A stretch of 64,000 nucleotides of DNA from NCBI RefSeq assembly GCF_001306175.1, contig NZ_LGKN01000005.1, positions 310,001-374,000 of the forward strand, written 5' to 3'. Source of the DNA: Ardenticatena maritima (lineage in GTDB: Bacteria > Chloroflexota > Anaerolineae > Ardenticatenales > Ardenticatenaceae). The notes beneath the pieces were generated by a model that was not told where the DNA came from, did no database searches, and saw nothing but the letters and a program-made list of their open reading frames with translations. Of the stretch, positions 5,661 to 10,078 are shown piece after piece. Numbering within the stretch: position 1 is the stretch's first letter; each line of letters begins with the position of its first letter. A program made the position numbers and the translations under genes.

Positions 5661-7571
5661 ATGCGTGTTTTGAGTTCGCTCTTGGTCTTTCTCTTGCTGG
5701 GTGCGCCGCTCTTCTTGAAACCGCGCGCGCCGGCACTCCCCCCCATGCTCGACGCCGCTTTTGCCGCAGGGCGCGCGGATTTCTGGGTGTTGCTCTCTCC
5801 ACCCGACACCACACCGCCGCCGATGACAGGCTCCATGGCGCAGGTGCGGCGCACGTTGACGGCACGCTGGCAAGCGCAAGCCGCCGCCGAACAAGCGCCG
5901 CTGGTCAACCTGGTGCACCACTTTGGCGCCGACGCCGAATCGTTCTGGCTGGTGAACGCGCTTTTGGTGCGCAACGGTACACGCGATCTGGCGCTGGCAC
6001 TCGCCCAACAGCCCAACGTGGTTGGCTTGACGCTCGAACGCCCGGTTGCGGCAACGTTGCCGGAACCGACGGCGGCGCCCAATCGCACCAGCGGCTCGGT
6101 GGAATGGCACGTCTCGCGCGTGGGAGCGCCCGACGTGTGGGCGAGCGGTATCACAGGCGAGGGCGTCGTGGTTGGTGTGCAAGATACCGGTATCGAAGCC
6201 ACCCATCCCGCGCTCATCACCCATGAGCGCGTGGTGAGCAGTACACACCCGCACGATTACGCCTGGCATGATGCCATTCACAGCGATGTGAGCGGCAACG
6301 GGAGCAACCCCTGCGGCTTTGACAGCCCCACCCCGTGCGACGACCACGGGCACGGCACCCACGTGACGGGGATTGCGGTCGGCGGCACACCAACCGACAA
6401 CATCGGCGTCGCCCCCGGCGCAACATGGATTGGATGCCGCAACATGGATGAAGGCGTTGGCTCGCCCGCCACATACCTGGAATGCTTCCAATGGTTTGTT
6501 TCGCCCACCAAAGTGGATGGAAGCGCGCCACGCCCAGACCTGGCGGCGGACATCATCAATAATTCGTGGGCGTGTCCGCCGTCTGAAGGGTGTGATAGCG
6601 GCAACACCATGTTGCTGCGTCGTGCGGTGGCGGCGCTCCAAGCGGCGGGGGTGCTCGTGGTGGCTTCAGCGGGCAATGAAGGACCGGGATGCGGCACGGT
6701 GAGCATGCCGCCGGGTATGTTCGTCGAAACGCTCTCGGTGGGCAGTAGCACCAGCAGCAACACGCTGAGCAGTTTCAGCAGTCGGGGTCCCGGTGAAGGG
6801 GGTGTCAAGCCGAACATCACGGCTCCGGGGAGTAGCGTGCGGAGCGCCTATGTTGGGGGCGGCTATGCCGTACTCAGCGGCACCAGCATGGCATCGCCCA
6901 ACGTGGCAGGGGTGGCGGCGCTCGTCTGGAGCGGCGCGCCCCAGGTGAAGAACAAAGTGCACTTGACGCACCACATCTTGCAATCCACCGCGACGCCCTT
7001 CACCAACACGGCATGCGGCGGCGACGACGACGCCCATCCCAACCACGCGTGGGGCTGGGGACTTGTCAACGCGCCGAACGCGGTCGCGCGGGCGCAAACC
7101 TGCGCCCAGCACGATTGGGACGGCGACGGGGCGACCACCGGCGCTGAAATCGCGCTGGTGCGCGCTCACCTCGGCGAGACAATCACACCGGAGACAAGCG
7201 CCCTTGACCTTGACGGCGACGGGGAGATTGACGCCGACGACGAAACGCTTTTGCTGGGGCACCTGGGCGAAGCCTGCGAGGGGCTGGTGGTCATCACCAC
7301 ACCACTCACAACCACCGCCATCCTCACGAACACCACGCCCTACACGCTGACCGTGCAAGCCACCTTCCTGCAAGGTGCGCAACTCGCCCATCCGGGCTTC
7401 ACCCTGACGCTTGCGCCATTTGAAAACGCCACCATCTTGCCCCCCTCCCCCATTGCCGACACCGTGCGGCTCACCGTACTCTGGATGGGGGACGAAGATG
7501 CGCCGCTCCACATCACCAGCACGAACAGACCGCCGCGCCGCTGGTTCTTCCCATTTGTATCTGCGCCCTGA
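5661..7571 (+). CDS. Secreted subtilisin-like serine protease with a dockerin-like C-terminal calcium region
   Basis: 636 residues with AGGAG upstream. A signal peptide spans about residues 1-20 and a propeptide-like stretch reaches about 145. The S8 catalytic domain shows Asp175 (QDTGIE), His231 (HGTHVTG), oxyanion Asn339 (SAGNEG) and Ser409 ([11 protein letters not shown]). Residues about 485-537 contain two EF-like loops, [12 protein letters not shown] and [12 protein letters not shown], spaced like the two halves of a type I dockerin and probably binding calcium. A final beta-rich region of about 90 residues follows. The role is extracellular proteolysis, with Ca2+ likely stabilising the tail. 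Cys residues are unusually frequent for a subtilase and may form disulfides. It is transcribed alone and ends at a strong bidirectional terminator. Confidence 0.95.
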
Positions 7572-8137: not shown

Positions 8138-8169
8138 AAAAAGCGGCACCCGCCGGCTACGGGTGCCGC
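8138..8169 (-). terminator. Terminator after the BON/WALKP repeat gene
   Basis: Nine-base stem GCGGCACCC with a 9-base loop, followed on the minus strand by five T. It lies 16 bases after the stop. Confidence 0.85.
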
Positions 8170-8185
8170 CAAACTGCTCGCGAGA

Positions 8186-9907
8186 TTAGCCGTTGAGCGC
8201 GGCTTGCGCCTCAGCGATGATGGCTTCCGGGTCGGGACCTTCACCCTTCTTGAAGGCGCTCTTGGCTTTGGCGAACGCCTTGAACTCTTCAGCACTCCAC
8301 TGGTCTTTGGGCTTCAATGCCCATGAGGGGTACTTTTCCAGCAATTCGGGCGGAATTTCACCCGGTGCCGCTTTTGCCGCCGATGACGGCGCGGCAGTCG
8401 CCGCGGCCTTCAACGCTTCTTGCTTGGCTTTTTCCAAAGCGGCTTGTGCTTCGGCAATAATCTGCTTCGGATCGGGACCTTCACCCTTCTTGAAGGCGCT
8501 CTTGGCTTTGGCTTGCGCCTTGAAATCTTCGGCGCTCCACTGGTCTTTGGGTTTCAGCGCCCAAGCGGGGTACTGCTCGCTCAACTTGGCGATGATAGCC
8601 TGCACCTCTTCCTCGGTCAGTTCGCGCTTGGTGGCCACACCAACGCCCGGCCCTTCGCTAACTTCGCCCCGCTGCGCTTTTTCCAGCGCTTCCTGCGCTT
8701 TGGCGCGAATCTCAGCCACCGGCATGCCCTGGCCGCGCAATTCGGCGATTTTGGCTTCGGCGGCTTCGCGGAAATCGTCAGCCGTCCACTGGCGGCGTGG
8801 TTTGAGCGCCCACATGGGGAACTGCTGGCGCAACGCCATCAACGCCGCGCGGCGTGGGTCGGTTGTTTCGGCGGCCGCCGCTGCGCCCGCGCCGGCGCTC
8901 GCTTTGGCCACCGCTTCACGCAACGCCTGTTGCGCTTCGGCAATCACCTGCTTCGGGTCAGGCCCTTCGCCTTTCTTGAAGGCGCTCTTGGCTTTGGCTT
9001 GCGCCTTGAAGTCTTCGGCGCTCCACTGGTCTTTGGGTTTCAACGCCCATTCGGGGTACTTTTGCTTCAACTCAGCCAACACCTCGGCGGGCACTTTTGC
9101 CAAGTCAATAGGTCCTTCCGGAACGGCGGCTTGCACCGGCTGAGCGGCGGCGGGTTCAGCGCCAAAGCCAAACAAATCGTCTTCGTCGCCTTCGCCTTCA
9201 TCAGCGGCGGCTGCGGCCGCCTGCGCCCCTTCACGCAAAATTTTGCCTGCTTCTTCCAACTCCTTCGGGTCGGGGCCTTCACCCTTCTTGAACGCCATCT
9301 TCGCCTTGGCACGCGCCTGGAAATCTTCCTTCGTCCATTCTTCTTTGGGCTTCAGCGCCCACGCCGGCAAATCGGCTTCCGTCACAGGGCGGCCACCCAC
9401 CATCGCCTGCTTGGCTTCACCACCGGCGCTCTTCTTGCGCTTGCGGCGCTTCTTCGGCGCGAGGACGCGCTCAATCGAAACGGGGTCCACCACCATGTGA
9501 TCGTGCACATCCAACACCCCCGGCACCGCCTGCACAATGCGCACGATTTCTTCACGAGCGGCTTCGGTGGGCACAGCGCCGTAGAGCATCACATGGCCGC
9601 GCACCACGCGGATTGGCAGCGGCAAGGGCGCAAGCCAACCGCCATCCACTTCCTGCAAACGGCGCGCCACAGCCACCGTCAACTCATCGTCCGAGTACAT
9701 TTCATTGCGCACCTCGCGCACACCTTCAACCTCGCGCGCCAATTGCTCGGCGACAAATTTGAGGCTGTCGGTGCGGGCAAAACCGCGCAACACGACCGTA
9801 CCGCTCTCTTCGACATCCACAAAAATTTCACATTCCCCCGTGCGCAACGGGTCATAGGACAGCAACGAGCGTTCAACGGCTTCGCGAAGCAGTTCTACTT
9901 TGACCAT
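8186..9907 (-). CDS. Two-BON-domain protein with five WALKP repeats
   Basis: 573 residues. The start is the ATG after AGGAG with a six-base gap. Residues about 1-72 and 73-141 look like two BON domains, with the [10 protein letters not shown] and VMLYGAVPT strand-turn pattern. A basic patch PKKRRKRKK sits at 151-159. Five copies of a 45-residue unit follow at about 180-224, 284-329, 363-408, 446-491 and 526-571. Each begins (Y/F/L)P-x-WALKPK and continues W-(S/T)-x-(E/D)-(D/E)-F; most read [14 protein letters not shown]. Copy 3 is divergent. Ala-rich linkers separate them. No signal peptide is visible, so it is probably cytoplasmic. BON domains usually bind membranes or small ligands; the repeat is unknown to me. 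Two of the copies are almost identical. Confidence 0.85.
8195..9370 (-). repeat. Five coding copies of the WALKP repeat
   Basis: The copies lie at 9236-9370, 8921-9058, 8684-8821, 8435-8572 and 8195-8332. Bases as well as residues are conserved between copies 2, 4 and 5, pointing to recent duplication or gene conversion. Copy 3 has lost the FKKGEGPDP core. Confidence 0.85.
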
Positions 9908-10078
9908 TCTCGTCTCCTGCATGCTGGAATGGAACCCCTCTGTTCGACACACAGATACACTTGTGCGATTTTACACAATCCGGAAAAGCGCGCCGATTAT
10001 AACACGAGCCCTTTTCCTTGTCGAATACGAACAAGCAGACGGCCTTCCTTATCGTCACACTTTTCAAAGAAACGCGCT

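Follow-up and report, generated by a model that had tools for sequence, protein, structure and literature searches.

The closest described systems are DolP (YraP) and OsmY of the Proteobacteria, in which BON domains occur as a tandem pair, and Kbp, a potassium binder that joins BON to LysM. OsmY is periplasmic and Kbp is cytoplasmic. According to the available portions of the DolP study (PMC7806268), DolP is an outer-membrane lipoprotein whose second BON domain (hereafter, BON2) binds PG and cardiolipin; the anionic lipid is bound via BON2 helix 1, for which W127 is needed, and BON domains are not general phospholipid binders. The available portion of the Kbp study (PMC9481166) places the potassium site in the BON domain, near the LysM domain. 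BON proteins with extra modules are already known, and the protein described here, judged by its sequence, is not a new system; its function is putative.

BON pair and gene structure

Within a 64,000-nucleotide stretch of the genome of Ardenticatena maritima, a heat-loving member of the Chloroflexota (hereafter, the window; genome G000), an open reading frame of 573 amino acids (8186..9907, minus strand) starts with an ATG at 9907, with AGGAG six bases upstream. The boundaries given in the original prediction stand, with the frame assigned to the minus strand; plus-strand frames in the region are unsupported, the longest being an upstream run-on of the secA frame. The protein, hereafter the WALKP protein, was predicted to combine two BON domains, a basic patch and five copies of a repeat, and a Pfam scan (PF04972) and a unit profile search confirm this arrangement. 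A promoter-like sequence, TCGACA-17-TATAAT, with 11 of 12 consensus matches and TG ahead of the second hexamer, is found at 9996..10024 (minus strand), and a terminator-like stem-loop of 12 pairs (9 of them G-C) followed by TTTT at 8142..8170 (minus strand). Promoter-like sites in the region number 3 against a shuffle mean of 0.5, in a consensus scan that is no proof of function, and terminator-like sites overall show no excess (3 versus 4.4 in shuffles). We infer transcription as a single gene.

Across the whole protein PF04972 scores 86.7 bits (E 1.3e-24; cut-off 27) in two stretches. BON domain 1 (residues ~4–72; 9692..9898, minus strand) is also recognised by the order of helices and strands in the full-length model, and BON2 (residues ~73–141; 9485..9691, minus strand) contains the best PF04972 stretch (72–141) and is matched by Foldseek to DolP, OsmY and BonA. 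The best Foldseek matches of the full-length model are the DolP/OsmY structures 7a2d and 8rjx (E 8.6e-7 and 3.4e-6), which share the tandem BON pair. The WALKP protein differs from these in its five-unit arm and in a BON2 helix 1 that, by inspection, carries no aromatic residue. Unlike the lipoprotein DolP, it has no hydrophobic N-terminal stretch or lipobox that could be recognised by eye at the N-terminus. The BON domain is also common to Kbp, for which the Foldseek match (7pvc) has a probability of 0.97 but an E of 1.0; the LysM domain of Kbp has no counterpart in a Pfam scan of the WALKP protein at E up to 10. Past BON2 lies the basic stretch PKKRRKRKK (residues 151–159; 9431..9457, minus strand), in a region of low model confidence (pLDDT <50 at 154–164); it is absent from the one-unit relative of genome G006.

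The fold match to DolP and OsmY raises the possibility of a similar membrane role, with the BON pair on anionic phospholipid at the inner membrane face and the Trp and Lys residues of the units adding contacts. The lipid preference described above for DolP BON2 would fit such a role, as would the two Trp and several Lys found in each unit and the patatin-like phospholipase or rhomboid genes that adjoin some short dual-BON relatives. We nevertheless consider it unlikely, in view of the BON pair's net charge of −10 and of the report, in the same portions of the DolP study (PMC7806268), that BON domains do not bind phospholipid in general and that W127 of helix 1 is required. By inspection, helix 1 of BON2 here (residues 73–88) contains zero aromatics; W91 lies just beyond it and is missing in G006. 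A DolP-like lipid-binding mode of BON2 is, on this inspection, possible but not favoured.

The WALKP unit and its occurrence

The five units have their WALKP Trp at W183 (unit 1; 9224..9409), W287 (unit 2; 8912..9097), W366 (unit 3; 8675..8860), W449 (unit 4; 8426..8611) and W529 (unit 5; 8189..8371), all on the minus strand. Searched against its own genome, a 52-column unit profile scores them at 89.9–99.9 bits (E 4.2e-25 to 3.1e-28), values still far beyond chance even though the five units had themselves gone into the profile. The W-to-W spacings of 104, 79, 83 and 80 show that the units are not arranged head to tail. The original prediction had described 45-residue units with an invariant WALKPK core and a GEGPDP element. 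The repeat is real, and WALKP is indeed found in all five units; WALKPK extends to only four, unit 3 reading WALKPRR, and GEGPDP likewise to four, being replaced in unit 3 by GQGMPV. The length requires revision, since the predicted folded unit spans about 60 residues and in units 2–5 includes a helix ahead of WALKP. The near-identity predicted for copies 2, 4 and 5 in both residues and bases is evident from a comparison of a 34-residue core: copies 2 and 4 have identical residues and 93% identical bases, and copy 5 shares 88% of residues with either, with base identities of 83% and 85% to copies 2 and 4, respectively.

Unit 4 modelled alone with AlphaFold2 (25 rows from five genomes) gave a mean pLDDT of 87.6 and a pTM of 0.64, with helices at 2–10, 27–41 and 48–61 and short turns at WAL and ahead of the second Trp. 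In the full-length model every unit shows the central and last helices again, units 2–5 show the first as well, and the pLDDT falls below 50 at 154–164, 233–266, 340–347, 417–428 and 504–516. The unit is probably a small helical mini-domain. Because the stretches of low pLDDT lie between the recurring unit helices, the repeat is, in the models, a bead on a string whose linkers are predicted to be disordered, and not a 45-residue tandem. Structure prediction of one unit and of the whole protein thus supports the proposal of a small folded domain, and the fully disordered outcome that had been set against it did not occur. In an alignment of 25 units, 11 of the 62 columns are invariant (P15, W17, A18, L19, K20, W25, A34, A36, A39, G43 and G45) and K37 is nearly so; these residues would form the core and perhaps a binding face.

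Linker 1, between units 1 and 2, contains the acidic-hydrophobic motif DEDDLFGF (residues 241–248; 9164..9187, minus strand) within the low-confidence stretch 233–266. E242, D244, F246, G247 and F248 are invariant in all five full-length genes and their surroundings vary; to judge from this conservation, the motif looks like a docking motif.

The basic stretch right past BON2, together with a Lys-rich unit helix, could conceivably make the arm a binder of DNA or RNA and the protein nucleoid- or ribosome-associated. The presence of yebC and ruvC downstream of the gene in a second genus, and of baeRF release-factor-like genes beside short dual-BON relatives, points the same way. The charge distribution does not: the units carry little net charge (−1 to +5), and that of linker 1 is −9. 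The unit moreover has no significant similarity to a known nucleic-acid-binding domain, and the genes seen near it in G000 and G001 are secA and others. We regard this function as doubtful.

The original prediction did not recognise the repeat, and it indeed falls in none of the families searched, as profile searches of the unit against Pfam, NCBIfam, PHROGs and PDB sequences returned nothing over the cut-off. Comparison of the unit model with the PDB using Foldseek gave 6 matches (best E 6.7, none at 0.001), with the viral folds of BFVD 28 matches (best E 2.6), and with eight chains in VIA-align none that reached a Z of 2. Fold searches have difficulty with short helical domains, and the lack of a match is no proof of a new fold. 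DUF3012 (PF11216) has a short KPKxxW stretch in common with the unit and matches 11 of 25 units at E up to 1 (best 0.0018), but only 16 of its 32 model positions are aligned, and membership was rejected at 17.5 bits for the protein and 18.7 in the genome search, against a gathering cut-off of 25. Also rejected were TelK_muzzle (E 0.00031 for the protein; 21.2 bits versus a cut-off of 27), DUF1771 and others, which were below cut-off or weak, and HP0721 (2xrh), for which the unit profile gives E 0.12 and the full profile 0.011, a match that we do not believe. Mobile elements yielded no relatives: a pattern scan of IMG/VR gave 40 pattern matches with 0 confirmed, tblastn of residues 167–573 against PLSDB gave none, and the best PHROGs match had an E of 0.053.

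The unit profile matches all seven genomes of the order Ardenticatenales. Full disorder with no conservation outside this gene, the outcome set against the prediction, did not arise. Five units are present in G000, G001, G002, G004 and G005; these full-length genes (n = 5, including that of the window) represent two genera, with G001 in the genus of G000. G006, from another family, has one unit, and G003, from a third genus, has one C-terminal fragment at a contig end. Both contigs of G003 (C882 and C526; loci L006, L021 and L059) stop within the WALKP gene, which is the outcome to be expected had near-identical units disrupted the assembly. The original prediction suggested looking for the repeat joined to other domains in related genomes, and no such fusion was seen in the seven genomes with the unit, every match being in the WALKP gene or the G003 fragment.

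Of 396 genomes of the class, 14 give a match at E up to 0.01, and seven of these belong to the order itself. The other seven (17.4–24.2 bits) look unrelated on inspection: two of these weak matches are ORFs of the solute-binding type that contain W..DDF..A or W..DDL..A, and another (L038 in G069, E 0.0098), PAWRLRPVGRWSADDF, is a 16-residue look-alike in a long enzyme-like ORF from which the rest of the unit is absent, and is taken as chance. Six of 400 genomes of the phylum match. Besides that of the window there are five (17.5–23.5 bits), which look unrelated, two being already among the class seven and three being a folate-reductase-like ORF and two short frames. A pattern scan of GTDB contigs gave 251 pattern matches and five confirmed loci, assigned to Ardenticatena, Ardenticatenaceae (2), Ardenticatenia and Ardenticatenales; it missed G006, which shows the scan to be insensitive to diverged units. 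Across the class and phylum genomes searched, the unit is lineage-restricted and found only in its order.

Descent and copying within the array

Five units occupy the same positions in two genera and, by this sequence comparison, the five-unit array predates both. The original prediction saw an array evolving by duplication. The five fixed positions do not fit simple duplication; what stands is the likeness of copies 2, 4 and 5, which arises through homogenisation of their cores (~8948–9055, ~8462–8569 and ~8222–8329, respectively; minus strand). Unit 3 is divergent and outside this homogenisation.

Tree tests were carried out on units 2, 4 and 5 of the five genomes, with 24 flanking codons set against a 36-codon core. 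For the flanks, a tree that groups units by position is accepted (p-AU 0.20) and two lineage trees are rejected (3e-6 and 1e-17). For the core, the by-position tree is rejected (p-AU 0.0009), and a tree with one group of units each for G002, G005, G004 and the G000 and G001 pair is accepted (p-AU 0.47); grouping G000 and G001 separately is rejected by the AU test (0.0002) and not by the SH test (0.14). Codon choice follows the same pattern. Where two of units 2, 4 and 5 have the same residue, their codons agree in 90 of 96 cases in G004 (0.94 versus 0.53 expected from codon use elsewhere in each gene), 68 of 80 in G002 (0.85 versus 0.64), 70 of 91 in G000 (0.77 versus 0.46), 65 of 89 in G005 (0.73 versus 0.43) and 51 of 86 in G001 (0.59 versus 0.42). 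None of 2000 label shuffles over the five genomes reaches the observed value, a count that is not a probability because the genomes are related and differ in codon bias. The value for G001 is no higher than the ortholog level (0.63), which implies that copying there is not recent. Unit 3 served as an internal control and shows a weaker excess: against units 1, 2, 4 and 5, respectively, 24, 15, 22 and 3 of 120 arrangements reach the observed codon likeness, and the within-genome likeness of units 3 and 5 indicates that codon bias contributes. Two lineage marks, a GCG Ala codon ahead of the second Trp in units 1, 2, 4 and 5 of G005 only and a TAC Tyr codon in units 2, 4 and 5 of G004 only, are what intragenic conversion would leave.

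With flanks that group by position and cores that group by lineage, silent sites included, the array appears to have been homogenised by conversion-like copying, which we infer to be confined to the 36-codon core of units 2, 4 and 5. Unequal crossing-over that keeps five units may be an alternative route. Selection for concerted change alone is insufficient, because silent sites are shared. As to the origin of the array, the lone unit of G006 resembles unit 1 most, with 32, 30, 27, 26 and 28 of 51 identities in G000, G001, G002, G005 and G004, respectively (unit 5 ties with unit 1 at 26 in G005); this similarity points to unit 1 as the oldest.

Within lineages, units 2, 4 and 5 change in concert, in their replacements as well. 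This would also be expected if the units pair across molecules to form a multivalent network or filament, with homogenisation serving to keep them fitting one another. The low-confidence linker stretches are compatible with such self-association, which is improbable given that one relative, that of G006, has a single unit and that homogenisation needs no selection. A neutral origin, in which a low-constraint Ala/Lys-rich tail grew by duplication and was homogenised only as near-identical DNA recombines, draws on the restriction of the unit to one taxon, the Ala-rich linkers and the way in which the conversion-like pattern tracks DNA identity. It is very hard to reconcile with five units at fixed positions in two genera, with the invariant columns of the unit alignment and with the confident unit model. 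Unit 3 too is conserved, having zero replacements between G000 and G001 in 32 codons, of which 14 differ silently. We give neutral spread hardly any credence.

Short dual-BON relatives and a proposed role

Searched with a BON-pair profile, 74 of 298 class genomes give matches at E up to 1e-15, and by ORF length these include short dual-BON proteins and PRC-barrel-BON-BON proteins of about 360–380 amino acids. The short stand-alone proteins (e.g. L008, L010, L011 and L015) have a BON pair 34–38% identical to that of the window, with which they share a PxR past the first helix that is invariant in the alignment; they differ in lacking the WALKP arm. Of 26 distinct dual-BON genes examined from outside the order, with duplicates taken once and with L006 (cut by a contig end), L007 and three PRC-type genes left out, 24 run no more than 9 residues past the matched BON region; the tails of the two exceptions, L091 (55 residues) and L093 (42 residues), are unlike WALKP. 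PRC-barrel-BON-BON paralogs occur in G000 (contig C3, L023, 360 amino acids, with PRC and BON identified by Pfam) and in G004 (contig C274, L022, 346 amino acids), where the gene lies between those of a MerR-type regulator and an HSP20 protein.

Around 20 short dual-BON loci (L076–L095), chosen outside the Ardenticatenales for strong score, with roughly one or two from each genus, the 133 neighbouring ORFs include hits to Rhomboid (7), baeRF_family10 (6), SDH_protease (5), MerR_1 (5), DnaJ (4), HSP20 (4), Usp (4), M41 (3) and Patatin (2), tallied per ORF and not per locus. These ORFs were picked mechanically, so that BON itself is counted in only 15 of the 133, longer opposite frames having displaced some. 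In control regions of these genomes (106 ORFs from 22 of 24 loci), none of these nine recurring families was hit by at least two ORFs; the control tally covers 25 listed families, beyond which families with a single ORF do not show. The controls cover 135,909 bases, versus 123,131 in the test set, at positions that are arbitrary and not random draws; 27 regions were asked for, of which 3 did not exist, and several of the 24 loci are cut by contig ends. Two of the 20 test genomes (G108 and G236) have no control region, and some controls lie on the dual-BON gene's own contig. Since the short dual-BON genes adjoin protease, chaperone and stress genes and the controls do not, the setting of this family suggests membrane-linked protein quality control or stress. 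The loci are possibly a stress or protein-quality-control island with a BON member. The main text of the release-factor paper, as available (PMC6514570), has no whole-word occurrence of 'BON' or 'rhomboid'. Among the literature matches listed, none concerns the WALKP protein or a BON-proteostasis link, the WALKP string being outside those searches.

The WALKP gene's own neighbours give no support to a stress link. It lies downstream of a divergent secA in G000, G001 and G004 and upstream of yebC-ruvC in G002, G004 and G005 (identified by Pfam for one yebC and one ruvC, and by likeness for the rest), and its neighbours in G006 include genes for an M50 peptidase and for a VWA protein. In G004, L058 (6179–7980, plus strand) encodes, in the interval from the WALKP gene to yebC, a PIN-domain protein and an AAA_21 ATPase, the Pfam name of whose family is that of a putative AbiEii toxin; L056 and L057 have no AAA_21/PIN genes at this position. 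A 730-amino-acid ORF in L057 (1837–4029, minus strand) appears by eye to hold two very similar substrate-binding lipoprotein-like copies in frame. In the window, an ORF at 5661–7571 (plus strand) looks by eye like a subtilisin-like protease whose N-terminus is signal-like and which has dockerin-like DxDGD stretches towards the C-terminus.

Beyond the computed anatomy, predicted fold, taxonomic restriction and mosaic history of the array, we tentatively propose that the WALKP protein is cytoplasmic and perhaps linked to stress, and that it joins its two BON domains to a multivalent arm built from a lineage-restricted domain, a reading that we hold to be possible rather than probable. The BON pair would be the anchoring or sensing part, and the units, on flexible linkers, would each bind the same kind of partner, with affinity coming from their number, so that homogenised copies would be tolerated or favoured. 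The arm would offer four like units and one different unit to its partner, and unit 3, conserved but different, might have a separate role or partner. The process served would most likely be membrane-linked stress or protein quality control, given the genes that adjoin the short dual-BON relatives. Against this reading stand the homogenisation in G001, which does not exceed the ortholog level, the contribution of codon bias seen through unit 3, and the BON pair's negative charge, which is unlike that expected of an anionic-lipid binder.

In evolutionary terms, the WALKP domain could have been born in the Ardenticatenales as one copy behind a widespread stress-linked dual-BON protein, multiplied to five, and been held alike by gene conversion confined to a functional core of 36 codons, and the resulting multivalent arm would change the specificity of its units in concert; we offer this history too with less than even confidence. 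Here a domain restricted to one lineage is present as a single unit in an outgroup and as five units in a family, and its flanks record descent and its cores record copying. This allows the birth of a multivalent domain in bacteria, and its concerted evolution, to be tested, and the comparison brings to notice the short dual-BON proteins that lie among protease, chaperone and stress genes in the Chloroflexota.
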